Positions 1-61,748 of a stretch of DNA of 64,000 nt are shown here, piece after piece. A program made the position numbers and the translations under genes. The stretch's first letter is position 1; the number at the start of each line of letters is the position of its first letter. The stretch covers positions 312,501 to 376,500 of the forward strand of contig OX442320.1 of assembly GCA_949358305.1 (NCBI GenBank), written 5' to 3'. Origin of the DNA: Strigamia acuminata. Taxonomy: Eukaryota; Arthropoda; Chilopoda; Geophilomorpha; Linotaeniidae. The notes under the pieces are model-generated. The model searched no databases and was not told the origin of the DNA. It was given only the letters and a program-made list of their open reading frames with translations.

Positions 1-1
1 C

Positions 2-18383: not shown

Positions 18384-18673
18384 TGTTGGAGTCCAGGATC
18401 GTGATTAACACAACTACATGCTCAAATGCAGCAAGAAATCCACTCAGCAAGATGAAGAACATAAACAGATATTTATTCTGTGAGGAGAGAACATGGCGAG
18501 AGAAAATACACAACAATCACACATAGAGAGAGTACTCTAGTGAGTGAAAACTAAGTAACAATAAATAAGATTTACATGGCAATGGTATAGTTATCACTTA
18601 TCCATTAAACACAAAACAGATCTACACAACATTATACAGAGTTTCTGATTGCACACATGAAACTGCCCCAACA
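18384..18673 (-). repeat. 3' LTR of copia copy A
   Basis: 290 bp, reading identical to the 5' LTR at 23885-24174, from tgttggagtcc to ctgccccaaca on the plus strand. An AATAAA polyadenylation signal lies on the minus strand at 18472-18477. Confidence 0.97.
18472..18477 (-). promoter_or_regulatory. Polyadenylation signal AATAAA in copia 3' LTR
   Basis: Plus-strand tttatt gives AATAAA on the element's coding strand, inside the LTR where transcript 3' ends form. The same hexamer occurs in the 5' LTR at 23973-23978. Confidence 0.6.
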
Positions 18674-18676
18674 AAA

Positions 18677-18687
18677 CTCCTCCTTTT
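18677..18687 (-). other. Polypurine tract, copia copy A
   Basis: AAAAGGAGGAG on the minus strand, three bases before the 3' LTR, is where plus-strand DNA synthesis would be primed. The interval 18688-18769 down to the stop codon is short A/T-rich untranslated sequence. Confidence 0.8.
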
Positions 18688-18769
18688 CATTGTGTAATAA
18701 AAACAAAACATCAAGGTAAATAAAATATTATAACCAATGATAAACTAGGATATAACAAATAATAAACTA

Positions 18770-21700
18770 TTATATCATGTCACATAAAAATTGATCTCTA
18801 AATAATTCAAATTTGTCTCTTGACAACCATTTCGTGAAGATATCAGCAGGATTTTCCTTACCATTAATGAATTTAACGAGTATACGCTCGTCTCGGATCC
18901 AATCCCGAATGAAAAAGTATTTCACTTCAATATGTTTGTTTTTGTTGTTTTGGATGAGATTGCGAGAAAAGTTCAGAGCTGCTTGGCTGTCAGAGTAAAT
19001 GATTGGCACGTGATTAACTCTTAGCTTTTTGAAAAACTTAGTACTCAAAAACCTATTTAACCAATCAGACTCTCGTGCACACTCAATTATCGTGGTGAAT
19101 TCGGCTTCCATAGTCGATAAAGAGGTTGTTCTTTGCTTACGACATGACCAACTTATTGGTACGCCTCCCAACGACACCACAAAGCCACCAAAACTCTTCC
19201 GCTCATCCTGGTCATTCGCATAAGATGCGTCACAAAAAGAAAACATTTGAGAAGACTCACAATCAGACAAAGAAATTACTTTATCCTTAGTGTTAGCTAG
19301 GTATTTCAAAACGTGCAATAGCATACGAATGTGTGACTCATTGTGCTTCTCATTGTATTGCGACAACAAAATTGTGGAAAAGAGGATGTCAGGACGTGTG
19401 CGGGTTGCCAAAAACAATAACGAACCAACCAAAGATCTGTATGGAAAGTCAGTATTTAACTGCTCATATTCCAAAGGTCTACGCACGACAGCACCCTGAT
19501 TTCCAGGCAATTTAATTTTAAATGAATTGTCAACATCGTACGCTTTGCAGAGTTTTTCTATGAAATCCCTCTGATGCATATAATACTTGTCGCCAACCTT
19601 AGTAAAGTTAACCCCGAGCACTCGAGTTATTGGCCCTAGGACCACTATATCGAATTTGGATTTGAGAAGCGATACAATCTGCTCTTGCACATCTTTTGAC
19701 AAACTAAACAGAAGCAGATCGTCAACATAAATCAGCATAATAGCTCGATATCCAAAACGATAAACACAATTAAACCCAATTACGTTTTTAAAACCAATGT
19801 TACGCAGGGCTGCATCCAGTGTGTAATACCATTCACGACCACTTTGGTGTAGACCATAAAGTGCCTTTTTAAGTAGCCAGATTACGTTACAGTTCTTGTC
19901 TTCGCCCCCATATCCTTTCGGACAACGCATGTAGATCTTGTGTTTCAGGTCGGCATACAAGTAGGCGCACTTCACATCAATATGAACGTGTTGCCACGAT
20001 GAAAGCACTACTAAAACGACAAAGAGCAACCTTACCAACACAAAGTCCACTACAGGGCTAAATATTTCGTCATAATCAAGTCCTTCTCTTTGAGAAAATC
20101 CTTGTGCGACAAGCCGACTTCGAAAACGACATGCACTGTTGCCTATCGCTTGTTTGAAGCTGATCCGAGGGAATCTCTTCGAATACTTTGCGATCCTTGA
20201 GTGTCTGGATCTCATCGTCCATGGCTGACTTCCATTGCTCAGCTTCAGGGGAAGAGATTGCTTCTGCAAAAGTACCCGGGTCTATGAAAGCATGATGAAT
20301 TTCGATGTCATCATTGTTGGTGGAGTCAAAATATTCTAGTTCGTCATCGTCATCGTCATCAGAACTTGGCTCATAATCGGGATCTCCAGGGTCATCCACG
20401 TCTCGAATATACATCTCCTCCTCGGACGATTCTCGGGCCGTTTCCAAATCATTCGTGTGTCGGAAACTTGTCTCGCCCTTGGGAGATTTACGGCTCGTGA
20501 TCGTTCGCAAACAACGACGTGGAGTGAGTATATCGGGTGTCAGGCGTGCCCTGTTAAAGTCAAAAAGTTCGTCAATGCATAGCTGTCGACGATCGTCATG
20601 CCAACGGCGTACGTCCGCCATCGAACAGCACAACATGTCGTCCGGAGAAAGGTAAGAAACATCGACCATTCCCGCCCGAACGCGAACTTCTCTCGTCCAC
20701 CCCTCGGGTGGTAGAATGTCGGTCGATGAAGAGGCTGTGGCGCCATCCAGTGATGCACTCACTGTCGTAGTACGTGGCGAGCGGCGTTTCTTTCTTCGGA
20801 TAGTCACTTTGTGGGATTCCTCCGTCATTCCCTCCTCCTGTCGATCATGACAATGGGGAGGTGCAGGTGAGGAGGTAAACACGGGAGGTGACGAGATAAG
20901 AGAAACGGGAGTCGTCGGAGAAAAAGCCAAAGTAGAGGACAATATTGGGGTTTGTGCGGAATGAAAAGAAGCCGCCGAGTTTGTAGAATGTTCAGATGAA
21001 TCACTCGAAGAGTTGAGGGAATCAGATGAGGGCACATACACGTTCTGTCGAGGCGATCGGCGTTTGCTTCGGTAAATAACCTGCTGATCGAACAACGGTA
21101 ACGACACACTAGATACACGTCCCTCAGGTCCCCTAAGTAAAGATTCATCAAATTTAACAGATTTGGATTCAATAATTTCCCCTGTCTCCGAATTCCAAAT
21201 TCGATATCCCGAAGTGCTCCGAGCATAACCCACCAAAACTCCCCTCCACGCACGAGGACTTAGTTTACTCGCGCGCGGGGCGGAATAATGTACAAAACAC
21301 TGTGACCCGATGCGTTTAAGAAAAGATACATTACATTTTCTGCGATAAAACGCAACGTATGGGGTCGTAAAATTCAATTTTGAGTGCGGAAAACGGTTCT
21401 TGACGAAGGCTGCGGTTTGGACCAATTCTGACCACAAACAATGCGGTAGTCCAGTTTCAAGCAAAACACTGCGCACCTGTTCAATCAAGACACGGTTTAG
21501 GCGCTCAGAAATTCCATTCATTTCGGGACAGTACGTGTTTGTGCGTTCATGCACAATCCCGAGCTTATCTGCATGACTTCCAAATGCCTTATTAACAAAC
21601 TCTAGGCCATTGTCTGACCGGATGCGTTTCAATTTAAAGCCAGTTTGGTGTTCGGTCTGTGTTTGCCAAGAAACAAAAGCCTGGAATGCATCAGATTTGT

Positions 21701-23672
21701 TACGGATGGGAATGGCCCAAACGTAACGTGTAAAATCATCTGTAATGCCAAGGAAATAATAACAATTGCCAACACCAATTTCAGGAGCAGCTCCCCATAA
21801 ATCAATATGGACAAGCTCCAATGGCTTTTTGGATTGTAAATAATCCAATCCACGAAATGATACACGACAGGATTTGGAAGTTCTGCATGTGGCACAATTG
21901 CCAAACTTTCGCTTAGAAATAGAAATTCCAGTGACATCAGCGTCGCGTGACAAATTTACAATACCACGTTTATGCAAATGCATATAACGTGAATGCCATA
22001 AATCGATGTCAGCATTTTTATTTGTACGCGAGGCTGTTTGCGACTCTGGTCTGGAAATTTGCTTATTAAGCTTTGCCGGATCCCGAATGTCAATCTGAAT
22101 CTTTTTGGGTTTGGCGGTTTTAAGTACTTCTGCAAAAATCTTTGCAGGCGATACAACTGGGACCGCAGGAAATATGGCAGGAGGTGCAGGCAAATTGTTA
22201 GGCGTTTTGACAAACATTGTCTGTTTGGCATTCACGAGGTTACGTGGCTTGGCCCTTTCTTCGGGTGTCAATGCCCGACCAACAAACCAGTATAAATTCC
22301 CTCGCTTAATAGCCCTAAATAAAATTGCCACTCCGTGTAAACCATATGCATCCATTATGCCATTTGCAATTCTAAAAGAACCGCCTTTGTTATCAAAACG
22401 GCCCACGGACATCAGATTGCGTCGAAAATTCGGGACATAAAGGACATTTTCCAGACCAATGTCACGTTTGACGCCATCTACGTCGCTCTCGACGTAGACA
22501 GTGCCACGTCCAGTGACAGTTGAGGTTCCTTCGCCCAGTTTCACTTTGAAAGGAACAACGGGGGTCATGTCAGAAAATAATTCTCGCTGATAACAGACAT
22601 GATCGGAAGCCCCAGAATCTAAAAGCCAATCTTGGTCAGACTTATCAATTAAGTGACACTGGACGAAGAAATTCTCAATGTCGGAAAAAGAAAATACAGT
22701 GTTGATATCTTCAGTGTGGGCTTCAAGTTGATGAGACTCAGAATCAACAGTCAACTTCTGCTTGCGTTTTTTCTTTGATTTGACCCGTGTTGCTACGGAA
22801 ACTGCCGGGGTAACAGGACTCGATTGCTGTGGCACAGATGATGGCCGAAAAGAAGGTTGCTGTTGCATGCGTGGCTGGGAAGGCTGGCCCGTACGTGGTG
22901 TAGGGCATTGTCTAGCCGAATGTCCTCGGCCACCGCAGTTGTAGCAAATAAATTCACCAGTCGGCTTTGCATCTTGCCTTGATCTGGGTTTCGAGTCTCG
23001 TCCCCGAAATACCGGTTTCTGATTCGGATTCGCAAGCGAATTGACCTGTGAAGACAACAAAGAAAGATTAGCAGAATCTTTTTCTAAATTTTCAAGACGT
23101 AATCGGTTGTATTCATCATACAACCGGCTTTTCACTTTATCAAAAGTGAAATCAGCTTTTGGCCATGCATATATTTGTGCACTTAGGATTTGATACTGTT
23201 CTGGCAACTTATAAATTAATTGAGCAGCCATGTCTCGGTCAGAGACTGGGAGTTTGGCATTTTCAAGCTCCAATGCCTGTCGCTCCACGCGATTAACAAA
23301 CTCCTGCATGGATTCTTCGGGCAGCATGTGAAGAGACCAGAAATTCCGTTTCAATGACGTTTCGAGCGACAAAGTCAGCGGCTCATATGCTTGTTGCAAA
23401 GCTTCCCACGCTTCCTTGGCTGTAGGCTTCGCCATTGCAACTCTGCGGCGTATTGAATCACAGGCAAAACCAATTACAGTGCGAGCTTTCTCTTTTCTTT
23501 CAGCAAAAATCCGTATTTCTTTAGCGGTTGCTGTTAGCGGGTCAGGTGTGATCGCTGTGCCATTTACGAAACTCCATAGTCCTTTGTTTCGCAAAAGTAA
23601 TTCGGCATCTTCACGCCATTCCCGGTAATTTTCACCGTTTAACAGATCAATGTGTGGCTCCTTGTTGGCCAT
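18770..23672 (-). pseudogene. Ty1/copia Gag-Pol polyprotein, frameshifted by a 44-bp deletion
   Basis: From the ATG at 23672 the frame encodes Gag, a CCHC knuckle, protease (DSGA), the integrase zinc and DDE domains and the long Ser/Asp-rich linker, nearly identical to copy B. At 20158/20159 it lacks 44 bp that in copy B encode the start of the reverse transcriptase. The frame shifts and stops at 20076-20078 after about 27 foreign residues. The rest of reverse transcriptase (YVDD) and RNase H continues open in another frame to 18770. The deletion ends share the triplet gaa, so it looks like a small microhomology deletion. This copy could still supply Gag, protease and integrase but not polymerase. 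The upstream TTG at 23681 is in frame but is not a likely start. Confidence 0.93.
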
Positions 23673-23869
23673 AATTTCCAAGTTTCAGAAAATATGATTC
23701 TTCAAAGCACTTGCAAAACGAAATTACGATGAAAACAAGTTAAAATACAAACGTTTCATGGTAAAAACTCGACTCGGAAAAATGCATCGCCATCTTGGAG
23801 GAGAAAAACAACAGTGACGTGCATCTTGCGATGCAAATAACTTATCGTGAGGCAAATGTAGAGTTTCCA

Positions 23870-23883
23870 ATCCTCTGCTACCA
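23870..23883 (-). other. Primer-binding site (initiator tRNA-Met), copia copy A
   Basis: Minus-strand TGGTAGCAGAGGAT, one base inside the 5' LTR, is complementary to the conserved 3' end of metazoan initiator tRNA-Met (...ATCCTCTGCTACCA). Use of this tRNA is common in Ty1/copia elements. Confidence 0.88.
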
Positions 23884-23884
23884 C

Positions 23885-24174
23885 TGTTGGAGTCCAGGAT
23901 CGTGATTAACACAACTACATGCTCAAATGCAGCAAGAAATCCACTCAGCAAGATGAAGAACATAAACAGATATTTATTCTGTGAGGAGAGAACATGGCGA
24001 GAGAAAATACACAACAATCACACATAGAGAGAGTACTCTAGTGAGTGAAAACTAAGTAACAATAAATAAGATTTACATGGCAATGGTATAGTTATCACTT
24101 ATCCATTAAACACAAAACAGATCTACACAACATTATACAGAGTTTCTGATTGCACACATGAAACTGCCCCAACA
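23885..24174 (-). repeat. 5' LTR of copia copy A
   Basis: 290 bp with TG...CA ends, reading identical to the 3' LTR. It ends at the target duplication gatga (24175-24179). The 212-bp leader between LTR and ATG (23673-23884) includes a YY1/Pho-like CCAAGATGGCG on the minus strand at 23788-23798. Confidence 0.97.
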
Positions 24175-27100: not shown

Positions 27101-29997
27101 CTATTTCTGAACATTCAGAGACATTGGTCTTGTGGTGTTTGTGCTAAGTCAACTGCGATGTGAAATGAGCTCAAAATTTTTTTTTCAAAATTTATTGCTT
27201 GGATGTTGCTAAAACTTTCATTGGAGCCTTCTACTAAGGTTTAAACACTATTTCTGAACATTCAGAGACATTGGTCTTGTGGTGTTTGTGCTAAGTCAAC
27301 TGTGATGAGATCAAAAGTCTATTCTCCTAAATCATTGCTTGGATGTTTCTAAAACTTACATTGGAGCCTTCTACTAAGGTTTAAACACTATTTCTGAACA
27401 TTCAGAGACATTGGTCTTGTGGTGTTTGTGCTAAGTCAACTATGATGAGATCAAAAGTCTATTCTCCCAAATCATTGCTTGGATGTTTCTAAAACTTACA
27501 TTGGAGCCTTCTACTAAGGTTTAAACACTATTTCTGAACATTCAGAGACATTGGTCTTGTGGTGTTTGTGCTAAGTCAACTGCGATGTAAAATGAGCTCA
27601 AAATTTTTTTTTCAAAATTTATTGCTTGGATGTTGCTAAAACTTACATTGGAGCCTTCTACTAAGGTTTAAACACTATTTCTGAATATTCAGAGACATTG
27701 GTCTTGTGGTGTTTGTGCTAAGTCAACTGTGATGAGATCAAAAGTCTATTCTCCCAAATCATTGCTTGGATGTTTCTAAAACTTACATTGGAGCCTTCTA
27801 CTAAGGTTTAAACACTATTTCTGAACATTCAGAGACATTGGTCTTGTGGTGTTTGTGCTAAGTCAACTATGATGAGATCAAAAGTCTATTCTCCCAAATG
27901 ATTGCTTGGATGTTTCTAAAACTTACATTGGAGCCTTCTACTAAGGTTTAAACACTATTTCTGAACATTCAGAGACATTGGTCTTGTGGTGTTTGTGCTA
28001 AGTTAACTGTGATGAGATCAAAAGTCTATTCTCGCAAATCATTGCTTGGATGTTGCTAAAACTTCTCTTGAAGTCTTCTACTAAGGTTTAAACACTATTT
28101 CTGAACATTCAGAGACATTGGTCTTGTGGTGTTTGTGCTAAGTTAACTGTGATGAGATCAAAAGTCTATTCTCGCAAATCATTGCTTGGATGTTGCTAAA
28201 ACTTCCCTTGAAGTCTTCTACTAAGGTTTAAACACTATTTCTGAACATTCAGAGACATTGGTCTTGTGGTGTTTGTGCTAAGTCAACTGCGATGTGAAAT
28301 GAGCTCAAAATTTTTTTTTCAAAATTTATTGCTTGGATGTTGCTAAAACTTTCATTGGAGCCTTCTACTAAGGTTTAAACACTATTTCTGAACATTCAGA
28401 GACATTGGTCTTGTGGTGTTTGTGCTAAGTCAACTGTGATGAGATCAAAAGTCTATTCTCCTAAATCATTGCTTGGATGTTTCTAAAACTTACATTGGAG
28501 CCTTCTACTAAGGTTTAAACACTATTTCTGAACATTCAGAGACATTGGTCTTGTGGTGTTTGTGCTAAGTCAACTATGATGAGATCAAAAGTCTATTCTC
28601 CCAAATTATTGCTTGGATGTTTCTAAAACTTACATTGGAGCCTTCTACTAAGGTTTAAACACTATTTCTGAACATTCAGAGACATTGGTCTTGTGGTGTT
28701 TGTGCTAAGTCAACTGCGATGTAAAATGAGCTCAAAATTTTTTTTTCAAAATTTATTGCTTGGATGTTGCTAAAACTTACATTGGAGCCTTCTACTAAGG
28801 TTTAAACACTATTTCTGAATATTCAGAGACATTGGTCTTGTGGTGTTTGTGCTAAGTCAACTGTGATGAGATCAAAAGTCTATTCTCCCAAATCATTGCT
28901 TGGATGTTTCTAAAATTTACATTGGAGCCTTCTACTAAGGTTTAAACACTATTTCTGAACATTCAGAGACATTGGTCTTGTGGTGTTTGTGCTAAGTCAA
29001 CTATGATGAGATCAAAAGTCTATTCTCCCAAATGATTGCTTGGATGTTTCTAAAACTTACATTGGAGCCTTCTACTAAGGTTTAAACACTATTTCTGAAC
29101 ATTCAGAGACATTGGTCTTGTGGTGTTTGTGCTAAGTTAACTGTGATGAGATCAAAAGTCTATTCTCGCAAATCATTGCTTGGATGTTGCTAAAACTTCT
29201 CTTGAAGTCTTCTACTAAGGTTTAAACACTATTTCTGAACATTTAGAGACATTGGTCTTGTGGTGTTTGTGCTAAGTCAACTGCGATGTGAAATGAGCTC
29301 AAAATTTTTTTTTCAAAATTTATTGCTTGGATGTTGCTAAAACCTACATTGGAGCCTTCTACTAAGGTTTAAACACTATTTCTGAACATTCAGAGACATT
29401 GGTCTTGTGGTGTTTGTGCTAAGTTAACTGTGATGAGATCAAAAGTCTATTCTCGCAAATCATTGCTTGGATGTTGCTAAAACTTCCCTTGAAGTCTTCT
29501 ACTAAGGTTTAAACACTATTTCTGAACATTCAGAGACATTGGTCTTGTGGTGTTTGTGCTAAGTCAACTGCGATGTGAAATGAGCTCAAAATTTTTTTTT
29601 CAAAATTTATTGCTTGGATGTTGCTAAAACTTTCATTGGAGCCTTCTACTAAGGTTTAAACACTATTTCTGAACATTCAGAGACATTGGTCTTGTGGTGT
29701 TTGTGCTAAGTCAACTGTGATGAGATCAAAAGTCTATTCTCCCAAATCATTGCTTGGATGTTTCTAAAACTTACATTGGAGCCTTCTACTAAGGTTTAAA
29801 CACTATTTCTGAACATTCAGAGACATTGGTCTTGTGGTGTTTGTGCTAAGTCAACTATGATGAGATCAAAAGTCTATTCTCCCAAATCATTGCTTGGATG
29901 TTTCTAAAACTTACATTGGAGCCTTCTACTAAGGTTTAAACACTATTTCTGAACATTCAGAGACATTGGTCTTGTGGTGTTTGTGCTAAGTCAACTA
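24175..29997. repeat. Satellite array 2
   Basis: About 5.8 kb of the same monomers. The first several hundred bases match the flank of copia copy B at 61749, including the rare cattacttgg variant (24207 and 61781). At 24740 the match resumes at an offset 427 bp larger, so the copy B side has three more monomers here (two of 140 and one of 147). Private variants include ttggggtg near 24863 and gatgaaatc near 25170. The array ends at the acta target duplication of the kinase element. Confidence 0.97.
29994..29997. other. Target-site duplication of the kinase element, left
   Basis: acta here is repeated at 36589-36592, just outside the right LTR. Joining the flanks recreates an ordinary monomer reading gtcaactatgatgag, which confirms both element ends. 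Confidence 0.85.
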
Positions 29998-31355
29998 TGT
30001 TTCTGGCAAGGTCGCAGGCGACAACCAGGCCAGAAGGAGGGGCGGCAATACTTGACTGCTGCTTGGCTAAAATTGATACACAGAAGTTGGCCAAAGACTT
30101 GAAGAAATGCAAACACTGGACTTGAACTTGCTGCTTCACATGATGATCTGCCACTGGTGAGTTCAAGGAGGAGGAAGGAGGATTTTTCTACTCACTGCAC
30201 ATTGCTTTCTGGTTGTATAGAGAAATGAGACTTGGAGAGAAATAAAAAGCAACCATTTTATTCTCTAAATTCTTAACAAGACTACTACAATTGAATCACG
30301 AGGATTTTACAAAGAAGTCACACTTTAACAATAATAAGAAACAACAAGTGTAACTATCTCCACATTGTATAAGGACACTTGCACTTAAAGTTACAGAGGT
30401 CTCTAAGTGCTTGTAAAGAGAAATAAGTACTGCTGGCACAACAAAACTACCGTAGAAGTTAATAGTTGAAAACACATAAGCCTAACAGCAAGTATTTGAC
30501 ATTAAATGCAAAAGTATACATTAACAACAGTCTCTAAACACAATGCTCATTGAGAACTAAATTATTCACTCTAAAACACACTGAACAACTCATAAAATAG
30601 AGAAAAGAATAAGTAAAGACATTTTAGACCAATGAGCTGGCAACTTTACAGTAAGTGCAGAAGTTAAGTTATAAATCAACACAGATAAATCTTAAACTTA
30701 ACACTTTTACATTGCATAATAATTAAGTGATTAATTATTAATCAGAACCCACAAAAACTCTTTGGGATTAAACATTTTCTCCTCTCTTTACAGATACAAG
30801 TAGACCACTCCCACAGTAATGGCCGACAATGTAAACAGAGATCACTTGCAGGAAGATAAAAAGGCTTGAAATTAGCTCACTAGACAGGCTACACACAATC
30901 TAAGTTAACAAAACGCTTAATTGGTTAGTAATATACAGAAAACAAACAGAAATTGATTGAAACAGCTTAAAACTGATAATAACATACATTTCTCATTCTA
31001 GTACCCTTTTGCTGTCTGAGAGCATCATTACACCTTGTCACTACATTGACAGTAGTGGACTGGAAACAGGAAAACACTTGGAAACATCAAAACATGCATA
31101 ACACAGGTAAACAAGATAGAAAATAAATTCTAAGTGGATAAATAACTAATGTAAGAACTCTTTTCTTCCCAGATTTATCCGGTCAGATCAACCAGTACTG
31201 AGAAATTCACTCAAACTAACTCAAAGAAGACTTATATTCAAATAAGTGTCTAATTAAATTCCCAATCTAAGATAAATATTAAAAACCCTTTTTAATAATT
31301 CCAGATGACTAATTTTTAAGACGTTTAGCAGCTTTCCTTTATGTTGCTAGCAACA
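29998..31355 (-). repeat. 3' LTR of the kinase element
   Basis: 1358 bp from tgtttctggc to gctagcaaca on the plus strand, same length and sequence as the 5' LTR at a constant offset of 5233. Minus-strand AATAAA lies at 30257-30262. The outer transcription-start end carries a perfect 14-bp palindrome TGTTGCTAGCAACA at 31342-31355. The 35 bp between the stop codon and this LTR show no purine-rich run on the coding strand. Confidence 0.95.
30257..30262 (-). promoter_or_regulatory. Polyadenylation signal AATAAA in kinase-element 3' LTR
   Basis: Plus-strand tttatt within the LTR; the twin in the 5' LTR is at 35490-35495. No other AATAAA on the coding strand was sought systematically. Confidence 0.5.
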
Positions 31356-31390
31356 TAGATTGCCGGCGAAAAGAAAGTGCGAACAACCCA

Positions 31391-34300
31391 TCATTTAGTT
31401 CGATTACTTCTGGTCTTTGATGATAATATTTGGGAGACCTCTTTCACCTTTTCGTATTCCACTCTGGGTGGCATGATTCTTTGACGGATCAAATTTGGTA
31501 TCCACGGAGGTATTCTTCGGTTGACAATCATACAACTAAGTCGAATAATTCCGTTGATGATTTTCCTTTTCGTCTCTAGAGACTTCATGGGCTTTGAGAA
31601 ACATACTCGACAGGTTGGTTTGTATTTGTCGATCCCTCCTATCATCTTGACTCTGGTTTCGTGCGAAATTCGTCTTGAAAATTCAGCTTTATCTCCGCAA
31701 AAATAACATTTTGCTTGTAGTTTCACAACAGACTCGGCTAGTGGAACTAACTCGGATATCTGATCAAATGGCTTCCTCTTGAAGTCGACGTCTAATGCGG
31801 CGACTATTACCTTTTTCTTTTGCTCAGCCATTTCATTTGAAAAAGTAAAAATGTCGGGAAAAAACTGTCCTTCGTCAATTCTGATTGTCTTCACTAATTT
31901 CGTTTTTTCCACAGCATTGGTTAGGCTACTGGTAGCAATTGCTTCTCGTCGATGACCGTCGGGGGTCACGACTTCGGTTTTACTGTAACGATCGTCATTG
32001 GAGTGTTTAATTAGCAGGGACGACGTCTTCTCTTCCTTTTCTAAAAGCTTCAATAACTTGGTCGTTTTTCCCGCATACATTGGACCAATGATGAGATGAA
32101 TTCCCTTTTGATTGGTTGACAAATCAATTTTCTTTTTCCAGAAATTCAGAATCACGTTTCCACTCCATCTCACGATTGCACACAATTTGGGTAAACTGGG
32201 CACTTGGTTTGTAAGTAATTCGACGTTCTTTCTCCCTGACTCTAACTGATTTCGCCCTCGTAATTCCGGCTTCATGTCCGAGCTTGGAGTTCTGTTGACC
32301 AATCCTCCATCCTTGAACGACTTTTTCGTTTTTTGGAGGGTGGTGTCCAGTTCCTCTTTCTCCAGACCACTGGAGAGGCTCGCGGCAAAACAAGAAGGTG
32401 TGACGTCTGTCTGTTTATTCACACCGGGTTCGCCATTCATGTTGGGCAGTGATTTCGGAATTAATTGGACTATTTTGTTTTCGTCATTTTCAGGTTGATT
32501 TGAGATCACTTCTTCTTTGGACTCGACCGCCATGCAAGAAATGTTGCACGCTGCCATGTTTTCTTCAAGCGGGTTGTTTGGTTTCAGTCGACCGTTTAGA
32601 ATCCACCCAAAAATTGTCTCCATTAATCCCAACTCGTCGTTGATTTTTCGGCTTCCACCTTGACAAATCTTCCACCATGCGTTGCTTCCTAATAAGACGT
32701 CAATGTCTTCCGATTCTGACGGATGTATCTCAGCCATCTCAAGTCCGAGTGATTGGACTTGCTTTATGGCTTCTGCTCCAATTATCCCTTTGACTTTCGG
32801 GAGTGTGTCGGTTTCTAATGCAAGGATTGATGTCTTTTTTGTTCCGTGTCTTGATTGTAGTTCGAATCTAAAGACATCATGTGTCGTCGGAACTGGCTTT
32901 TTGTTGAGCAGACACTGTGTCATCGTGTGTAGTGTCTCGATCTTTTGCATCCGGAATTTATTTACTAGTCTCTTCGTGACGTAGGAGCGATGGCTTCCTG
33001 GATCTAGTAATCCGCGGACGGGGTACATGTCTCCATTTTTCTTCACAAAAAGAGCAGTGAAGACCATCAGTTGAATCTCCACCGACTCGGTAAGCGATAC
33101 ATTAGTAGACACGTTTTCTTCTTTTGGTGTAATCGCTTTTTCTTTGTTGTTTTTGTTGCAGATCGATGTGTGATGTCTTCCACCACACAAGCGACAACAA
33201 AACTTCACGGTACATTCTTTGGCTGTGTGGTTATATCTCAAGCAGTTGAAACAAAGTCGTTTCTTCTTCACTATTTCGATCCTCGCCGGTACATCGAGAT
33301 CCGCATCACAATTTGCGTGTGCGTGATCACCATCACAATAAGCGCAGGCGGGTTTGCGGTTTGGATTTGACTTGGAATTCATACTCAATTTTCCATTCTC
33401 GGAAGTCACGAATGAGGACATGGTTCCAGTTGGTCTTTCTCTTGTTTCCTTTGAAGTTTTCTCAAATTTTTCTGACTTCTTCAGATGAGCGCGCTTAAGG
33501 AGAACGCTTTCTTCCGACAATTCAGCCAGTTGTATCTCGGTTGCTACGAAGTCCAGAAAAACGTTAACATCATCAACTTTTCCTTGATGCTTTCGGTAAA
33601 AACGTTGGGAGATCTCCGGTGGAAATTTTCTAAGTAGTTCTGGAATAAGGTACGTTCCAGTAGTGTCAACTGACACAGACAGTTGCGCCATGGTCCGGAC
33701 AGCAGATGCCAATGACGTGAATAGAGCTTTGAGTGGCTCGATTGGGTAGAGATCGAAAACGGGTTTCGACTCCCTAATCATCTTTGAAATAGCATTTCTC
33801 TGCGTGTTTTCAGAACCGAATAGACTCTCCAATGTATTTTTCGCTAATGGGTAGGCGTCATCAGTTATTGGGTACGACTTGATTGCGGATTCTGCAGCCC
33901 CAGTGCAGCATGACCTCAGATATATAAGCTTTTCCACGTTCGAAAGCTCCGTGTTCTGATCAACTGCTGATTCGAATAAATTCGCAAAACCTCTATATTC
34001 AGTTGCATCGCCACTAAATTTGGCAATGTCGGTTTTCGGCAATCTCGTGTTTCTCCTAGATGAAGCGGACGTCTGGTTTAAACTGGAATTCTGTCCCGGA
34101 TGGGAACCAAATTGCCCTGCCATTTTTCCAGACACTTTTGCTCTTTGCTTCAATAAATTTACTCTGGTTCTAATGTCTTCAATTCGTTGAAGCCCCGCTA
34201 AATAGTCCTCTCTTTTTGACTCGTCTTTAAGAGCTTTCAATTCGTCTGCGAGATCACTCAATTGCTGGTCAACCGTTATTTGCATGGCTTCCAGCTCTCC

Positions 34301-34408
34301 TCCGTCTAGAATGTTGACTGAAGATCCCAGCAGATCCTCGGCTCCTTGAGCCTTTGCTTTCCAAATGACCTCCTTTTCCTCGAGATCAGCAGCGGATAAT
34401 GTAGCCAT
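31391..34408 (-). CDS. Gag-protease-thymidine kinase fusion polyprotein
   Basis: 1005 residues from the ATG at 34408 (the frame opens nine bases earlier with GTG, not a plausible eukaryotic start). Residues 120-290: BEL/Pao Gag domain (KFSGDATEYRGFANLFESAV). Zinc knuckles: C355-C367, C386-C399, C405-C417. Protease: LLDPGSHRSY with catalytic D469, through about residue 606. A hydrophilic linker ends in LNFW (754-757). Residues 769-942: TK1-type thymidine kinase, with Walker A GPMYAGKTT (775-783), DEGQFF with catalytic E846, VIVAALDVDF, zinc cysteines C901, C904, C933, C936, and GGIDKY (924-929). A basic 63-residue tail follows. The kinase would phosphorylate thymidine with ATP to dTMP, feeding dTTP synthesis. 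All visible catalytic and zinc residues are kept, and there are no introns. Protease cleavage could release the kinase from Gag, or it could stay in the particle. Confidence 0.95.
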   Translation of the reverse strand: MATLSAADLEEKEVIWKAKAQGAEDLLGSSVNILDGGELEAMQITVDQQLSDLADELKALKDESKREDYLAGLQRIEDIRTRVNLLKQRAKVSGKMAGQFGSHPGQNSSLNQTSASSRRNTRLPKTDIAKFSGDATEYRGFANLFESAVDQNTELSNVEKLIYLRSCCTGAAESAIKSYPITDDAYPLAKNTLESLFGSENTQRNAISKMIRESKPVFDLYPIEPLKALFTSLASAVRTMAQLSVSVDTTGTYLIPELLRKFPPEISQRFYRKHQGKVDDVNVFLDFVATEIQLAELSEESVLLKRAHLKKSEKFEKTSKETRERPTGTMSSFVTSENGKLSMNSKSNPNRKPACAYCDGDHAHANCDADLDVPARIEIVKKKRLCFNCLRYNHTAKECTVKFCCRLCGGRHHTSICNKNNKEKAITPKEENVSTNVSLTESVEIQLMVFTALFVKKNGDMYPVRGLLDPGSHRSYVTKRLVNKFRMQKIETLHTMTQCLLNKKPVPTTHDVFRFELQSRHGTKKTSILALETDTLPKVKGIIGAEAIKQVQSLGLEMAEIHPSESEDIDVLLGSNAWWKICQGGSRKINDELGLMETIFGWILNGRLKPNNPLEENMAACNISCMAVESKEEVISNQPENDENKIVQLIPKSLPNMNGEPGVNKQTDVTPSCFAASLSSGLEKEELDTTLQKTKKSFKDGGLVNRTPSSDMKPELRGRNQLESGRKNVELLTNQVPSLPKLCAIVRWSGNVILNFWKKKIDLSTNQKGIHLIIGPMYAGKTTKLLKLLEKEEKTSSLLIKHSNDDRYSKTEVVTPDGHRREAIATSSLTNAVEKTKLVKTIRIDEGQFFPDIFTFSNEMAEQKKKVIVAALDVDFKRKPFDQISELVPLAESVVKLQAKCYFCGDKAEFSRRISHETRVKMIGGIDKYKPTCRVCFSKPMKSLETKRKIINGIIRLSCMIVNRRIPPWIPNLIRQRIMPPRVEYEKVKEVSQILSSKTRSNRTK
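31583..32104 (-). other. Thymidine kinase (TK1-type) domain within the fusion
   Basis: About 174 residues covering the TK1 core: P-loop, the RYSK segment expected near the substrate pocket, the DEGQFFPDIF block, the LVPLAESVVKL helix, both CX2C zinc ribs and the substrate lasso GGIDKY. These blocks look like eukaryotic TK1 rather than the unrelated deoxyribonucleoside kinase (dNK) family. It is slightly shorter than cellular TK1 because the N-terminal extension and the C-terminal regulatory tail are missing, as expected for a domain joined to another protein. Whether the donor was a host gene or a virus cannot be settled without a tree. Confidence 0.94.
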
Positions 34409-35230
34409 AATCCTCACCGAGAAATGAAGAATTCAAAGGATCAGTTCAGGATTCAAACTCAACTTAACTGACTAAATTGGTTAACAAGAAATTGTCTAAT
34501 TCTTTTACACTCTAGGATTTACTGAACACACAAAAACGGGATGGATATCCACAAGCTGTTAACAGGATTGAAACACACGGGATGTTAACAGGATTGGCAA
34601 ATTAACCCCCAAAATTCAATAATTAAAGGTAATTGACAATTCTCTTATTTTCACAATTGAGTTTCTGACTAGATACTCGTTTTAAATTGGGATACCAACA
34701 CTAAAGCTTAGTATTATTCACTAATTCACTGGATATTCTCTAAATTCCACAAACTGGAATCGAGAATTTATTCAAACTGTTAAGACTTAAACTTCTTCTC
34801 CCCCCAACTACACCAGTTTCTAATCAAAAACTCTTTTTGAAATAATTACAGCAGCAAATTCGGATATTATTCTATTTAAATAATAATTCTTAATAATTAT
34901 TTCTTCAAATCTTCTTGTAGGATGTACATTGCGTTGTGTTTGGAATTGATTGTCGTGCAGGATCGCTCGTACTCTCGAAGCCTTGCTTGATCCAAGTTGA
35001 AAAACATCTTGACCATCTTGACAATTTGAGAATCCAACTTGAAAAACCCACTTTTTTGCCTGTGAAAGGCGGACGAGAGCATACACTTCACTGTAGTGGC
35101 ACAGCTTCAATGGCACTTTACACATAAAAGCTTTGCACAGCTTGAGAACAAAACCCACTGATGAATTTTGCAGCACACATGAAGGTCCACTGAGATAACT
35201 GGAAGAAATCCTTGGTTCACGGTACCAAAT
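34409..35230 (-). other. 5' leader of the kinase element
   Basis: Untranslated A/T-rich stretch between primer site and ATG. A short direct repeat gttaacaggattg occurs twice near 34558-34590. The 17-bp motif at 34926-34942 (acattgcgttgtgtttg) is identical to one in the leader of the BEL/Pao element and is a candidate for a shared packaging or dimerisation signal. The small frames over 34820-35399 have no recognisable product. Confidence 0.7.
35208..35227 (-). other. Primer-binding site of the kinase element
   Basis: Minus-strand TGGTACCGTGAACCAAGGAT, three bases inside the 5' LTR. It matches the BEL/Pao site at 3665-3682 apart from a few substitutions and inserted bases, suggesting use of the same or a similar tRNA by both elements. 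Confidence 0.7.
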
Positions 35231-36588
35231 TGTTTCTGGCAAGGTCGCAGGCGACAACCAGGCCAGAAGGAGGGGCGGCAATACTTGACTGCTGCTTGGC
35301 TAAAATTGATACACAGAAGTTGGCCAAAGACTTGAAGAAATGCAAACACTGGACTTGAACTTGCTGCTTCACATGATGATCTGCCACTGGTGAGTTCAAG
35401 GAGGAGGAAGGAGGATTTTTCTACTCACTGCACATTGCTTTCTGGTTGTATAGAGAAATGAGACTTGGAGAGAAATAAAAAGCAACCATTTTATTCTCTA
35501 AATTCTTAACAAGACTACTACAATTGAATCACGAGGATTTTACAAAGAAGTCACACTTTAACAATAATAAGAAACAACAAGTGTAACTATCTCCACATTG
35601 TATAAGGACACTTGCACTTAAAGTTACAGAGGTCTCTAAGTGCTTGTAAAGAGAAATAAGTACTGCTGGCACAACAAAACTACCGTAGAAGTTAATAGTT
35701 GAAAACACATAAGCCTAACAGCAAGTATTTGACATTAAATGCAAAAGTATACATTAACAACAGTCTCTAAACACAATGCTCATTGAGAACTAAATTATTC
35801 ACTCTAAAACACACTGAACAACTCATAAAATAGAGAAAAGAATAAGTAAAGACATTTTAGACCAATGAGCTGGCAACTTTACAGTAAGTGCAGAAGTTAA
35901 GTTATAAATCAACACAGATAAATCTTAAACTTAACACTTTTACATTGCATAATAATTAAGTGATTAATTATTAATCAGAACCCACAAAAACTCTTTGGGA
36001 TTAAACATTTTCTCCTCTCTTTACAGATACAAGTAGACCACTCCCACAGTAATGGCCGACAATGTAAACAGAGATCACTTGCAGGAAGATAAAAAGGCTT
36101 GAAATTAGCTCACTAGACAGGCTACACACAATCTAAGTTAACAAAACGCTTAATTGGTTAGTAATATACAGAAAACAAACAGAAATTGATTGAAACAGCT
36201 TAAAACTGATAATAACATACATTTCTCATTCTAGTACCCTTTTGCTGTCTGAGAGCATCATTACACCTTGTCACTACATTGACAGTAGTGGACTGGAAAC
36301 AGGAAAACACTTGGAAACATCAAAACATGCATAACACAGGTAAACAAGATAGAAAATAAATTCTAAGTGGATAAATAACTAATGTAAGAACTCTTTTCTT
36401 CCCAGATTTATCCGGTCAGATCAACCAGTACTGAGAAATTCACTCAAACTAACTCAAAGAAGACTTATATTCAAATAAGTGTCTAATTAAATTCCCAATC
36501 TAAGATAAATATTAAAAACCCTTTTTAATAATTCCAGATGACTAATTTTTAAGACGTTTAGCAGCTTTCCTTTATGTTGCTAGCAACA
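35231..36588 (-). repeat. 5' LTR of the kinase element
   Basis: 1358 bp, identical to the 3' LTR wherever compared, with the terminal palindrome TGTTGCTAGCAACA at 36575-36588 and AATAAA (minus strand) at 35490-35495. Transcription would start inside this LTR and run leftward through the fusion gene. Confidence 0.95.
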
Positions 36589-39500
36589 ACTATGATGAGA
36601 TCAAAAGTCTATTCTCCCAAATCATTGCTTGGATGTTTCTAAAACTTACATTGGAGCCTTCTACTAAGGTTTAAACACTATTTCTGAACATTCAGAGACA
36701 TTGGTCTTGTGGTGTTTGTGCTAAGTCAACTGTGATGAGATCAAAAGTCTATTCTCTCAAATCATTGCTTGGATGTTTCTAAAACTTACATTGGAGCCTT
36801 CTACTAAGGTTTAAACACTATTTCTGAACATTCAGAGACATTGATCTTGTGGTCTTTGTGCTAAGTCAACTGCAATGTGAAATAAGCTCAAAATTTTTTT
36901 TTCAAAATTTATTGCTTGGATGTTGCTAAAACTTACATTGAAGGCTTCTACTAAGGTTTAAACACTATTTCTGAACATTCAGAGACATTGGACTTGTGGT
37001 GTTTGTGCTAAGTCAACCGTGATAAGATCAAAAGTCTATTCTCCCAAATCATTGCTTATATGTTTCTAAAACTTACATTGGAGCCTTCTACTAAGGTTTA
37101 AACACTATTTCTGAACATTCAGAGACATTGGTCTTGTGGTGTTTGTGCTAAGTCAACTGTGATGAGATCAAAAGTCTATTCTCCCAAATCATTGCTTGGA
37201 TGTTTCTAAAACTTACATTGGAGCCTTCTACTAAGGTTTAAACACTATTTCTGAACATTCAGAGACATTGGTCTTGTGGTGTTTGTGCTAAGTCAACTAT
37301 GATGAGATCAAAAGTCTATTCTCCCAAATGATTGCTTGGATGTTTCTAAAACTTACATTGGAGCCTTCTACTAAGGTTTAAACACTATTTCTGAACATTC
37401 AGAGACATTGGTCTTGTGGTGTTTGTGCTAAGTTAACTGTGATGAGATCAAAAGTCTATTCTCGCAAATCATTGCTTGGATGTTGCTAAAACTTCCCTTG
37501 AAGTCTTCTACTAAGGTTTAAACACTATTTCTGAACATTCAGAGACATTGGTCTTGTGGTGTTTGTGCTAAGTCAACTGCGATGTGAAATGAGCTCAAAA
37601 TTTTTTTTTCAAAATTTATTGCTTGGATGTTGCTAAAACTTTCATTGGAGCCTTCTACTAAGGTTTAAACACTATTTCTGAACATTCAGAGACATTGGTC
37701 TTGTGGTGTTTGTGCTAAGTCAACTGTGATGAGATCAAAAGTCTATTCTCGCAAATCATTGCTTGGATGTTGCTAAAACTTCCCTTGAAGTCTTCTACTA
37801 AGGTTTAAACACTATTTCTGAACATTCAGAGACATTGGTCTTGTGGTGTTTGTGCTAAGTTAACTGTGATGAGATCAAAAGTCTATTCTCGCAAATCATT
37901 GCTTGGATGTTGCTAAAACTTCCCTTGAAGTCTTCTACTAAGGTTTAAACACTATTTCTGAACATTCAGAGACATTGGTCTTGTGGTGTTTGTGCTAAGT
38001 CAACTGCGATGTGAAATGAGCTCAAAATTTTTTTTTCAAAATTTATTGCTTGGATGTTGCTAAAACTTTCATTGGAGCCTTCTACTAAGGTTTAAACACT
38101 ATTTCTGAACATTCAGAGACATTGGTCTTGTGGTGTTTGTGCTAAGTTAACTGTGATGAGATCAAAAGTCTATTCTCGCAAATCATTGCTTGGATGTTGC
38201 TAAAACTTCCCTTGAAGTCTTCTACTAAGGTTTAAACACTATTTCTGAACATTCAGAGACATTGGTCTTGTGGTGTTTGTGCTAAGTCAACTGCGATGTG
38301 AAATGAGCTCAAAATTTTTTTTTCAAAATTTATTGCTTGGATGTTGCTAAAACTTTCATTGGAGCCTTCTACTAAGGTTTAAACACTATTTCTGAACATT
38401 CAGAGACATTGGTCTTGTGGTGTTTGTGCTAAGTCAACTGTGATGAGATCAAAAGTCTATTCTCCCAAATCATTGCTTGGATGTTTCTAAAACTTACATT
38501 GGAGCCTTCTACTAAGGTTTAAACACTATTTCTGAACATTCAGAGACATTGGTCTTGTGGTGTTTGTGCTAAGTCAACTATGATGAGATCAAAAGTCTAT
38601 TCTCCCAAATCATTGCTTGGATGTTTCTAAAACTTACATTGGAGCCTTCTACTAAGGTTTAAACACTATTTCTGAACATTCAGAGACATTGGTCTTGTGG
38701 TGTTTGTGCTAAGTCAACTATGATGAGATCAAAAGTCTATTCTCCCAAATCATTGCTTGGATGTTTCTAAAACTTACATTGGAGCCTTCTACTAAGGTTT
38801 AAACACTATTTCTGAACATTCAGAGACATTGGTCTTGTGGTGTTTGTGCTAAGTCAACTGTGATGAGATCAAAAGTCTATTCTCTCAAATCATTGCTTGG
38901 ATGTTTCTAAAACTTACATTGGAGCCTTCTACTAAGGTTTAAACACTATTTCTGAACATTCAGAGACATTGATCTTGTGGTCTTTGTGCTAAGTCAACTG
39001 CAATGTGGAATAAGCTCAAAATTTTTTTTTCAAAATTTATTGCTTGGATGTTGCTAAAACTTACATTGAAGGCTTCTACTAAGGTTTAAACACTATTTCT
39101 GAACATTCAGAGACATTGGACTTGTGGTGTTTGTGCTAAGTCAACCGTGATAAGATCAAAAGTCTATTCTCCCAAATCATTGCTTATATGTTTCTAAAAC
39201 TTACATTGGAGCCTTCTACTAAGGTTTAAACACTATTTCTGAACATTCAGAGACATTGGTCTTGTGGTGTTTGTGCTAAGTCAACTGTGATGAGATCAAA
39301 AGTCTATTCTCCCAAATCATTGCTTGGATGTTTCTAAAACTTACATTGGAGCCTTCTACTAAGGTTTAAACACTATTTCTGAACATTCAGAGACATTGGT
39401 CTTGTGGTGTTTGTGCTAAGTCAACTATGATGAGATCAAAAGTCTATTCTCCCAAATGATTGCTTGGATGTTTCTAAAACTTACATTGGAGCCTTCTACT

Positions 39501-55913: not shown

Positions 55914-56203
55914 TGTTGGAGTCCAGGATCGTGATTAACACAACTACATGCTCAAATGCAGCAAGAAATCCACTCAGCAAGATGAAGAACATAAACAGAT
56001 ATTTATTCTGTGAGGAGAGAACATGGCGAGAGAAAATACACAACAATCACACATAGAGAGAGTACTCTAGTGAGTGAAAACTAAGTAACAATAAATAAGA
56101 TTTACATGGCAATGGTATAGTTATCACTTATCCATTAAACACAAAACAGATCTACACAACATTATACAGAGTTTCTGATTGCACACATGAAACTGCCCCA
56201 ACA
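55914..56203 (-). repeat. 3' LTR of copia copy B
   Basis: 290 bp reading the same as the other three copia LTRs, with minus-strand AATAAA at 56002-56007. The polypurine tract AAAAGGAGGAG lies just inside at 56207-56217; 56218-56299 is short untranslated sequence. Confidence 0.97.
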
Positions 56204-56206
56204 AAA

Positions 56207-56217
56207 CTCCTCCTTTT
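56207..56217 (-). other. Polypurine tract, copia copy B
   Basis: AAAAGGAGGAG on the coding strand, three bases from the 3' LTR, identical to copy A. Confidence 0.8.
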
Positions 56218-56299
56218 CATTGTGTAATAAAAACAAAACATCAAGGTAAATAAAATATTATAACCAATGATAAACTAGGATATAACAAATAATAAACTA

Positions 56300-59200
56300 T
56301 TATATCATGTCACATAAAAATTGATCTCTAAATAATTCAAATTTGTCTCTTGACAACCATTTCGTGAAGATATCAGCAGGATTTTCCTTACCATTAATGA
56401 ATTTAACGAGTATACGCTCGTCTCGGATCCAATCCCGAATGAAAAAGTATTTCACTTCAATATGTTTGTTTTTGTTGTTTTGGATGAGATTGCGAGAAAA
56501 GTTCAGAGCTGCTTGGCTGTCAGAGTAAATGATTGGCACGTGATTAACTCTTAGCTTTTTGAAAAACTTAGTACTCAAAAACCTATTTAACCAATCAGAC
56601 TCTCGTGCACACTCAATTATCGTGGTGAATTCGGCTTCCATAGTCGATAAAGAGGTTGTTCTTTGCTTACGACATGACCAACTTATTGGTACGCCTCCCA
56701 ACGACACCACAAAGCCACCAAAACTCTTCCGCTCATCCTGGTCATTCGCATAAGATGCGTCACAAAAAGAAAACATTTGAGAAGACTCACAATCAGACAA
56801 AGAAATTACTTTATCCTTAGTGTTAGCTAGGTATTTCAAAACGTGCAATAGCATACGAATGTGTGACTCATTGTGCTTCTCATTGTATTGCGACAACAAA
56901 ATTGTGGAAAAGAGGATGTCAGGACGTGTGCGGGTTGCCAAAAACAATAACGAACCAACCAAAGATCTGTATGGAAAGTCAGTATTTAACTGCTCATATT
57001 CCAAAGGTCTACGCACGACAGCACCCTGATTTCCAGGCAATTTAATTTTAAATGAATTGTCAACATCGTACGCTTTGCAGAGTTTTTCTATGAAATCCCT
57101 CTGATGCATATAATACTTGTCGCCAACCTTAGTAAAGTTAACCCCGAGCACTCGAGTTATTGGCCCTAGGACCACTATATCGAATTTGGATTTGAGAAGC
57201 GATACAATCTGCTCTTGCACATCTTTTGACAAACTAAACAGAAGCAGATCGTCAACATAAATCAGCATAATAGCTCGATATCCAAAACGATAAACACAAT
57301 TAAACCCAATTACGTTTTTAAAACCAATGTTACGCAGGGCTGCATCCAGTGTGTAATACCATTCACGACCACTTTGGTGTAGACCATAAAGTGCCTTTTT
57401 AAGTAGCCAGATTACGTTACAGTTCTTGTCTTCGCCCCCATATCCTTTCGGACAACGCATGTAGATCTTGTGTTTCAGGTCGGCATACAAGTAGGCGCAC
57501 TTCACATCAATATGAACGTGTTGCCACGATGAAAGCACTACTAAAACGACAAAGAGCAACCTTACCAACACAAAGTCCACTACAGGGCTAAATATTTCGT
57601 CATAATCAAGTCCTTCTCTTTGAGAAAATCCTTGTGCGACAAGCCGACTTCGAAAACGACATGCACTGTTGCCTATCGCTTGTTTGAACTTGTAAATCCA
57701 GCGATTTCCAACGAGTTTCGACCCCTGCGGAAGCTGATCCGAGGGAATCTCTTCGAATACTTTGCGATCCTTGAGTGTCTGGATCTCATCGTCCATGGCT
57801 GACTTCCATTGCTCAGCTTCAGGGGAAGAGATTGCTTCTGCAAAAGTACCCGGGTCTATGAAAGCATGATGAATTTCGATGTCATCATTGTTGGTGGAGT
57901 CAAAATATTCTAGTTCGTCATCGTCATCGTCATCAGAACTTGGCTCATAATCGGGATCTCCAGGGTCATCCACGTCTCGAATATACATCTCCTCCTCGGA
58001 CGATTCTCGGGCCGTTTCCAAATCATTCGTGTGTCGGAAACTTGTCTCGCCCTTGGGAGATTTACGGCTCGTGATCGTTCGCAAACAACGACGTGGAGTG
58101 AGTATATCGGGTGTCAGGCGTGCCCTGTTAAAGTCAAAAAGTTCGTCAATGCATAGCTGTCGACGATCGTCATGCCAACGGCGTACGTCCGCCATCGAAC
58201 AGCACAACATGTCGTCCGGAGAAAGGTAAGAAACATCGACCATTCCCGCCCGAACGCGAACTTCTCTCGTCCACCCCTCGGGTGGTAGAATGTCGGTCGA
58301 TGAAGAGGCTGTGGCGCCATCCAGTGATGCACTCACTGTCGTAGTACGTGGCGAGCGGCGTTTCTTTCTTCGGATAGTCACTTTGTGGGATTCCTCCGTC
58401 ATTCCCTCCTCCTGTCGATCATGACAATGGGGAGGTGCAGGTGAGGAGGTAAACACGGGAGGTGACGAGATAAGAGAAACGGGAGTCGTCGGAGAAAAAG
58501 CCAAAGTAGAGGACAATATTGGGGTTTGTGCGGAATGAAAAGAAGCCGCCGAGTTTGTAGAATGTTCAGATGAATCACTCGAAGAGTTGAGGGAATCAGA
58601 TGAGGGCACATACACGTTCTGTCGAGGCGATCGGCGTTTGCTTCGGTAAATAACCTGCTGATCGAACAACGGTAACGACACACTAGATACACGTCCCTCA
58701 GGTCCCCTAAGTAAAGATTCATCAAATTTAACAGATTTGGATTCAATAATTTCCCCTGTCTCCGAATTCCAAATTCGATATCCCGAAGTGCTCCGAGCAT
58801 AACCCACCAAAACTCCCCTCCACGCACGAGGACTTAGTTTACTCGCGCGCGGGGCGGAATAATGTACAAAACACTGTGACCCGATGCGTTTAAGAAAAGA
58901 TACATTACATTTTCTGCGATAAAACGCAACGTATGGGGTCGTAAAATTCAATTTTGAGTGCGGAAAACGGTTCTTGACGAAGGCTGCGGTTTGGACCAAT
59001 TCTGACCACAAACAATGCGGTAGTCCAGTTTCAAGCAAAACACTGCGCACCTGTTCAATCAAGACACGGTTTAGGCGCTCAGAAATTCCATTCATTTCGG
59101 GACAGTACGTGTTTGTGCGTTCATGCACAATCCCGAGCTTATCTGCATGACTTCCAAATGCCTTATTAACAAACTCTAGGCCATTGTCTGACCGGATGCG

Positions 59201-61246: not shown

Positions 61247-61443
61247 AATTTCCAAGTTTCAGAAAATATGATTCTTCAAAGCACTTGCAAAACGAAATTA
61301 CGATGAAAACAAGTTAAAATACAAACGTTTCATGGTAAAAACTCGACTCGGAAAAATGCATCGCCATCTTGGAGGAGAAAAACAACAGTGACGTGCATCT
61401 TGCGATGCAAATAACTTATCATGAGGCAAATGTAGAGTTTCCA

Positions 61444-61457
61444 ATCCTCTGCTACCA
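61444..61457 (-). other. Primer-binding site (initiator tRNA-Met), copia copy B
   Basis: TGGTAGCAGAGGAT on the minus strand, one base inside the 5' LTR, as in copy A. Confidence 0.88.
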
Positions 61458-61458
61458 C

Positions 61459-61748
61459 TGTTGGAGTCCAGGATCGTGATTAACACAACTACATGCTCAA
61501 ATGCAGCAAGAAATCCACTCAGCAAGATGAAGAACATAAACAGATATTTATTCTGTGAGGAGAGAACATGGCGAGAGAAAATACACAACAATCACACATA
61601 GAGAGAGTACTCTAGTGAGTGAAAACTAAGTAACAATAAATAAGATTTACATGGCAATGGTATAGTTATCACTTATCCATTAAACACAAAACAGATCTAC
61701 ACAACATTATACAGAGTTTCTGATTGCACACATGAAACTGCCCCAACA
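61459..61748 (-). repeat. 5' LTR of copia copy B
   Basis: 290 bp with TG...CA ends, matching the other copia LTRs. The leader 61247-61458 contains the YY1/Pho-like CCAAGATGGCG at 61362-61372. The 97-residue frame crossing LTR and leader (61298-61591) has no recognisable domain. Confidence 0.97.

Follow-up and report, generated by a model that had tools for sequence, protein, structure and literature searches.

Non-autonomous LTR elements of the TR-GAG type keep Gag and lack pol. Other LTR elements have gained enzymes: in the available portion of PMC5408684 the bdelloid elements Juno, Vesta and TelKA carry a dUTPase between protease and reverse transcriptase (RT), and non-primate lentiviruses, according to the accessible text of PMC12365946, require dUTPase for efficient replication in non-dividing cells. 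Captured genes are also documented, within the parts available of both sources, for crocodilian endogenous retroviruses (ERVs), which carry KIT-ligand or nectin3, the latter replacing part of the element's own coding (PMC4299795), and for LTR elements of rice and sorghum (PMC3726574).

The window analyzed here, a 64-kb stretch of Strigamia acuminata DNA, contains at 29998-36588 (minus strand) an LTR retrotransposon, hereafter the TK element, in which a thymidine kinase (TK) domain stands where a polymerase would be expected. Our working model, which we hold with about even confidence, is that this may be a non-autonomous element of BEL/Pao lineage with a particle-linked kinase supplying dTMP, captured from a cytosolic TK1-type gene. 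A first-pass annotation had described identical 1358-bp LTRs with a target duplication, a primer site, and one frame encoding a BEL/Pao Gag and protease fused to a TK1-type kinase in place of the polymerase, with the motifs GPMYAGKTT, DEGQFF and GGIDKY and four zinc cysteines; each part of that description was borne out by the results below. To it the analysis adds the missing purine tract ahead of the 3' LTR, a linker and a tail, and an unusually strong divergence of the kinase.

The paired LTRs are 1358 bp each and identical at 1358 of 1358 bases. The 5' LTR (35231..36588, minus strand) starts with TGTTGCTAGCAACA and ends with CAGAAACA, and the 3' LTR (29998..31355, minus strand) has the same sequence without a mismatch. 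A 4-bp target-site duplication (TSD), ACTA, adjoins the 3' LTR at 29994..29997 and the 5' LTR at 36589..36592. The TG..CA-type LTRs, the TSD and a primer-like site (see below) are hallmarks of LTR retrotransposons in general. When the flanks are joined with one ACTA, they match unbroken satellite at 38571-38870 over 300 of 300 bases, and 197 of 290 BLAST matches to the joined site span the whole junction. The TK element thus entered a satellite array by ordinary integrase-type insertion, and did so recently, since its LTRs show no differences. BLAST found no second copy of it within the 64-kb window, which counts against the working model.

The array itself, examined over 28000-38500, combines 140- and 147-bp steps into a higher-order pattern, and the same satellite recurs elsewhere in the window, with matches from 5307 to 63027 among those listed. 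A satellite pattern gave no match in the genome-contig and viral-contig sets searched. Two further elements with 290-bp LTRs, at 18384-24174 and 55914-61748, appear by eye from their proteins to be of copia type. Identity between their regions is 99.25% across an alignment of 6144 columns that takes in the satellite flanks, and they share the same flanks and a 5-bp GATGA duplication; these twins represent either a duplicated array segment or one target used repeatedly. The copy at 55914-61748 has one 1652-aa frame and that at 18384-24174 has two overlapping frames. The insertion sites of the TK element (duplication ACTA) and of the two copia elements (duplication GATGA) lie a few bases apart within the satellite monomer stretch ACTATGATGAGAT, a clustering that hints at a preferred position in the monomer.

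A single open reading frame (ORF) of 1008 aa (31391..34417, minus strand; first ATG at residue 4, 34408-34406, giving 1005 aa from there) encodes, in order, Gag, protease, linker, thymidine kinase and a C-terminal tail. The Gag core, DUF1759, covers residues 134-275 (33593..34018, minus strand; Pfam PF03564, E 2.1e-17). Three zinc knuckles starting CAYC, CFNC and CRLC (33158..33346, minus strand) have counterparts at matching alignment columns in most BEL relatives. The protease active-site motif DPGS (residues 472-475; 32993..33004, minus strand) lies in a D-x-G column present in 20 of 20 BEL relatives, 6 of which have DPGS itself; DUF1758, the main Pfam protease profile, gave no match on the ORF at E<=1, and this counts against the working model. 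The 145-aa linker (residues 626-770; 32108..32542, minus strand) has no significant relatives, with no PDB match at E<=5 and a sole Pfam match, PF05242, at E 0.034, below the cut-off. Likewise, the 66-aa tail (residues 943-1008; 31394..31591, minus strand) has no significant relative, its best PDB match having E 0.41 and Pfam giving none. The frame runs unbroken across the Gag-kinase junction and ends 35 bp short of the 3' LTR. Third-position GC, which was counted for the working model, is 0.419 in the kinase and 0.418 in Gag residues 1-330, with the other segments at 0.424-0.497. The ORF as a whole had no relative in the genome-contig and viral-contig sets searched.

RT, RNase H and integrase are absent among the 8 Pfam matches of the ORF at E<=1. 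The BEL comparison set comprised the 20 database proteins found with the ORF, of which 16 are listed with PF05380 (Pao-type pol); all 20 align to the ORF over Gag-protease only, the longest alignments ending at about residues 616-627 and one at about 667. Remnants of pol were sought in the linker and tail with these 20 proteins, Pfam and PDB, and none was found. The TK element thus has the DUF1759 Gag with zinc knuckles and the in-frame aspartic protease motif of a BEL element, and lacks a detected RT, RNase H and integrase; as judged from its sequence, it is a non-autonomous BEL/Pao derivative and not a full member of the group.

A second BEL element occupies 1-5267 of the window (minus strand), about 25 kb from the TK element, and is cut by the window start; it has an RT region, and one LTR is in view. 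Its frame at 2-2989 (minus strand) continues into the RT region (RVT_1, E 7.4e-4, below the family cut-off), and the BEL proteins align onward through that region. The Gag-protease of this neighbor is identical to that of the TK element at 233 of 615 aligned positions (38%), and the two resemble each other in primer site and in how the LTR begins. No BLAST match was found between its DNA and the TK element, and for this reason the neighbor is not established as a helper. An autonomous partner sharing the LTR of the TK element was not seen in the window, which counts against the working model.

The primer-binding-site-like sequence TTTGGTACCGTGAACC lies at 35214..35229 (minus strand), separated by a single base from the inner end of the 5' LTR. 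A pattern derived from the TK element itself and matched across the window found one other occurrence, with 3 mismatches, at 3669-3684 (minus strand), which is the expected place in the neighboring BEL element; 0.26 matches were expected by chance, and 2 of 100 shuffles reached 2. The other priming site is the difficulty. The gap between stop codon and 3' LTR (31356..31390, minus strand) is 35 bases long and has a pyrimidine run in place of a purine tract; no sense polypurine tract was found before the 3' LTR, where the last 30 nt are 30% purine and contain CTTTCTTTTC. Both copia elements in the window, which are controls from another superfamily and not from BEL, carry GAAAAGGAGGAG 3 nt before the LTR. 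The missing tract leaves plus-strand priming of the TK element unexplained and counts against the working model. Priming at the LTR border must nonetheless have happened at least once, because the LTRs are identical and a TSD is present. The LTR opens with the palindrome TGTTGCTAGCAACA, and the neighboring BEL LTR opens with a related inverted repeat, TGTTGCGAGCAAGAACGCAACA; an RNA hairpin at the palindromic start was considered as a substitute plus-strand primer and was dropped, since folding of the first 40 bases did not surpass that of shuffles (z 1.15).

The kinase domain itself (residues 771-942; 31592..32107, minus strand) matches Pfam PF00265 at E 2.8e-52 over residues 773-940, and its best PDB match by sequence is human TK1 (2wvj, E 3.2e-39). 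An AlphaFold model computed with an alignment of 55 rows reaches a mean pLDDT of 89.7 and a pTM of 0.87, and the best Foldseek match to it is again human TK1 (1w4r, E 2e-20, 42% identity). The motifs GPMYAGKTT (778-786), DEGQFF (848-853), CYFC (904-907), GGIDKY (927-932) and CRVC (936-939) are present, so that the P-loop, DEGQFF, zinc cysteines, lasso and predicted fold by which a TK1-type enzyme is recognized are all found. For the P-loop we assigned G778, G783, K784 and T785 from the general P-loop pattern. With the P-loop pattern included, 16 sites were mapped by motif from the available portions of papers on the vaccinia and Leishmania enzymes (PMC1636055, PMC4433323), the others being D808, R810, D848, E849, F879, S914, R916, Y932, C904, C907, C936 and C939. 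The usual residue is kept at 15 of these 16 catalytic, substrate and zinc sites, including the catalytic Glu, the Mg-binding Asp, the P-loop Lys, the Asp-Arg loop, the lasso Arg and Tyr, and the four Cys.

The exception is residue 914, which is Ser; among the best 120 of 790 homologues, the residue is Thr in 108 and Ser in 12. Ser at this position is natural in vaccinia TK, according to the accessible text of PMC1636055, whereas in human TK1 the corresponding Thr-to-Ser substitution, according to the title of PDB entry 2wvj, shifts specificity away from thymidine. Ser914 counts against the working model. Residue 880 is Lys in place of Gln and corresponds to vaccinia Gln-114, mutation of which abolished dTTP feedback (PMC1636055, in the part available); we did not rely on this substitution, as homologue P0077 has Lys and P0048 has Arg there. 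Taken together, the sequence speaks for a fold that is competent as a kinase and has retained its active site, though in a single copy with many near-invariant positions altered.

Those alterations are extensive. The homologues used for comparison were the best 120 of 790, ranked by likeness to the window TK, and hence are not a random sample of TKs. The window TK departs at 24 of 80 columns conserved at >=90% in these 120 (one departure is a gap, leaving 23 without it), and 5 of the 24 sit among the 35 columns invariant in all 120; the same count made for each of the 120 homologues (78-79 columns, gaps ignored) gave a median of 1 and a maximum of 13. The departures include F781Y beside the P-loop, E787K, R790K and H819P, and the altered near-invariant columns count against the working model. 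Mean identity of the window TK to the others is 0.443, compared with a median of 0.646 and a next-lowest value of 0.523, and its end branch is the longest in both trees (5.75 under a mixture model with 61 rows; 2.56 under LG+G4 with 31 rows). Among the conserved columns, the named sites are kept at 13 of 14 and the others at 43 of 66 (Fisher p 0.054). Preferential retention of the active site is therefore borderline, suggestive and not decisive, and was entered against the working model.

Neutral decay was simulated with substitutions only and no indels, in 400 runs per identity level. Open frames survived in 126, 34, 15 and 3 of 400 runs at 90, 80, 70 and 50% identity, and all 16 sites were retained in 57, 5, 0 and 0 of 400 at the same levels. 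From this we infer that selection probably acted through most of the kinase's divergence, either within the element or in the donor gene. The constraint on the kinase could predate capture, which counts against the working model. As to the donor, animal TKs lead the homologues listed (best 120 of 790), with Timema at 51% identity; buffalopox TK has 45% identity to the window TK among the matches listed, IMG/VR contigs reach at most 36% (best 80 of 82 relatives), and phage records at most 33% (best 5 of 62). Quick trees gave no starred set for the window TK with 60 of the 120 homologues and a starred set of 3 rows with 30 of the 120. Neither placement of the donor is trusted, the trees being quick, the branch very long, and the 60-homologue tree carrying a long-branch-join warning.

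Under the working model, Gag would assemble particles that package the element RNA. The TK element must borrow RT and integrase because it has no pol, and an autonomous BEL relative would supply RT, RNase H and integrase in trans. The kinase would be synthesized at the C-terminal end of the Gag precursor and carried in or near the particle, where it would convert thymidine and ATP to dTMP; host kinases would take dTMP to dTTP, and raising dTTP where it is short would favor cDNA synthesis. Any benefit from the kinase would fall on cDNA made by the trans-supplied enzymes, since the element does not bring an RT itself. The captured gene would be of the eukaryotic cytosolic TK1 type. In favor of the model we count the anatomy of the element, the Gag and TK family matches, the likeness to the neighbor's Gag-protease, the preserved knuckles and protease motif, the complete kinase with its confident model, the continuous frame and the decay simulation. 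A dTTP-supply role, which the first-pass annotation had proposed, is plausible by analogy. The larger proposal, that a retrotransposon lineage made an enzyme of thymidine salvage part of its capsid precursor, with particles providing dTMP for themselves and repaying the trans-supplied polymerase, is one that we offer tentatively and regard as doubtful.

Another account would have the kinase be a passenger, acquired in frame when reverse transcription switched templates to the mRNA of a host TK, conferring no benefit and leaving a chance chimera that is perhaps dead through loss of the polypurine tract with pol. Captured genes are frequent in LTR retrotransposons, and in rice many are now pseudogenes (PMC3726574, in the portion available); the TK element has no purine tract, is present once in the window, and, with its identical LTRs, is too young an insertion for decay to have set in. 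These observations keep such an origin a possibility of some substance, albeit one that we think unlikely. They must be set against the presence of a whole catalytic domain in frame, with its stop 35 bp before the LTR, and against the retention of catalytic and zinc sites in so diverged a kinase, which is not what a random fragment captured recently would show, provided that the divergence occurred within the element.

It is distinctly improbable, in our judgment, that the domain lost thymidine phosphorylation and was retained for a different function, for instance in binding nucleotides or in the structure of the particle. The 24 of 80 altered near-invariant columns, F781Y, E787K, R790K and H819P among them, would fit such a change, but the catalytic Glu, Mg-binding Asp, P-loop Lys, Asp-Arg loop and four Cys are intact, and the predicted model retains the TK1 fold. 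Lastly, long satellite arrays are difficult to assemble and one copy was examined, so the Gag-kinase junction might be an assembly or recombination artefact and not one contiguous molecule; with a frame that is continuous over the junction, matching LTRs and a TSD that surround it, and no N anywhere in the window, we consider this very unlikely.

The first-pass annotation knew of no described retrotransposon with such cargo, and our literature and protein searches also gave none among the matches listed. Among the matches listed in our search of open-license papers, none described a Gag-thymidine kinase fusion that replaces pol; nothing was found in the open-license literature on a thymidine kinase together with Belpaoviridae, and the word "kinase" is absent, by text search, from the available text of PMC12440569. 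The search of the kinase segment against protein databases that had been suggested returned TK homologues, as described above. A protein search with residues 745-1008 against proteins of 554-1764 aa (1244 candidates) found no BEL-TK fusion, its sole match being a Lagenidium protein of 593 aa in which the kinase lies close to the N-terminus and TK is the only listed Pfam domain. Gene sets often omit ORFs derived from transposable elements, and the negative result of this fusion search is weak for that reason. Gene capture by LTR elements and dUTPase cargo are already known; the Gag-kinase fusion without pol appears, as far as these searches reach, to be new. If the working model is true, a thymidine kinase in the position of dUTPase would mean that retroelements have met the nucleotide problem in a second, independent way, dTTP limitation of retrotransposition in germ line or soma would become testable, and an LTR element devoid of pol would be able to evolve a useful Gag-linked enzyme.

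In sum, the TK element has in common with BEL/Pao elements (Belpaoviridae) the DUF1759 Gag, three zinc knuckles, the D-x-G column, TG...CA LTRs and a 4-bp TSD, and differs from them in having no detected RT, RNase H or integrase, no sense polypurine tract, and a kinase after the protease. With cytosolic TK1-type (type II) kinases it shares the catalytic domain, motifs, zinc cysteines and predicted fold, whereas its kinase is fused behind Gag-protease and changed at 24 of 80 near-invariant columns. It resembles gene-capturing LTR elements in holding a host gene between its LTRs, although theirs is other cargo in other superfamilies, and it adds to the TR-GAG type a complete kinase domain. Finally, like the bdelloid dUTPase elements, it has an enzyme of nucleotide metabolism in the slot after the protease, but where those elements carry a dUTPase and retain pol, this one carries a thymidine kinase and its pol is gone.
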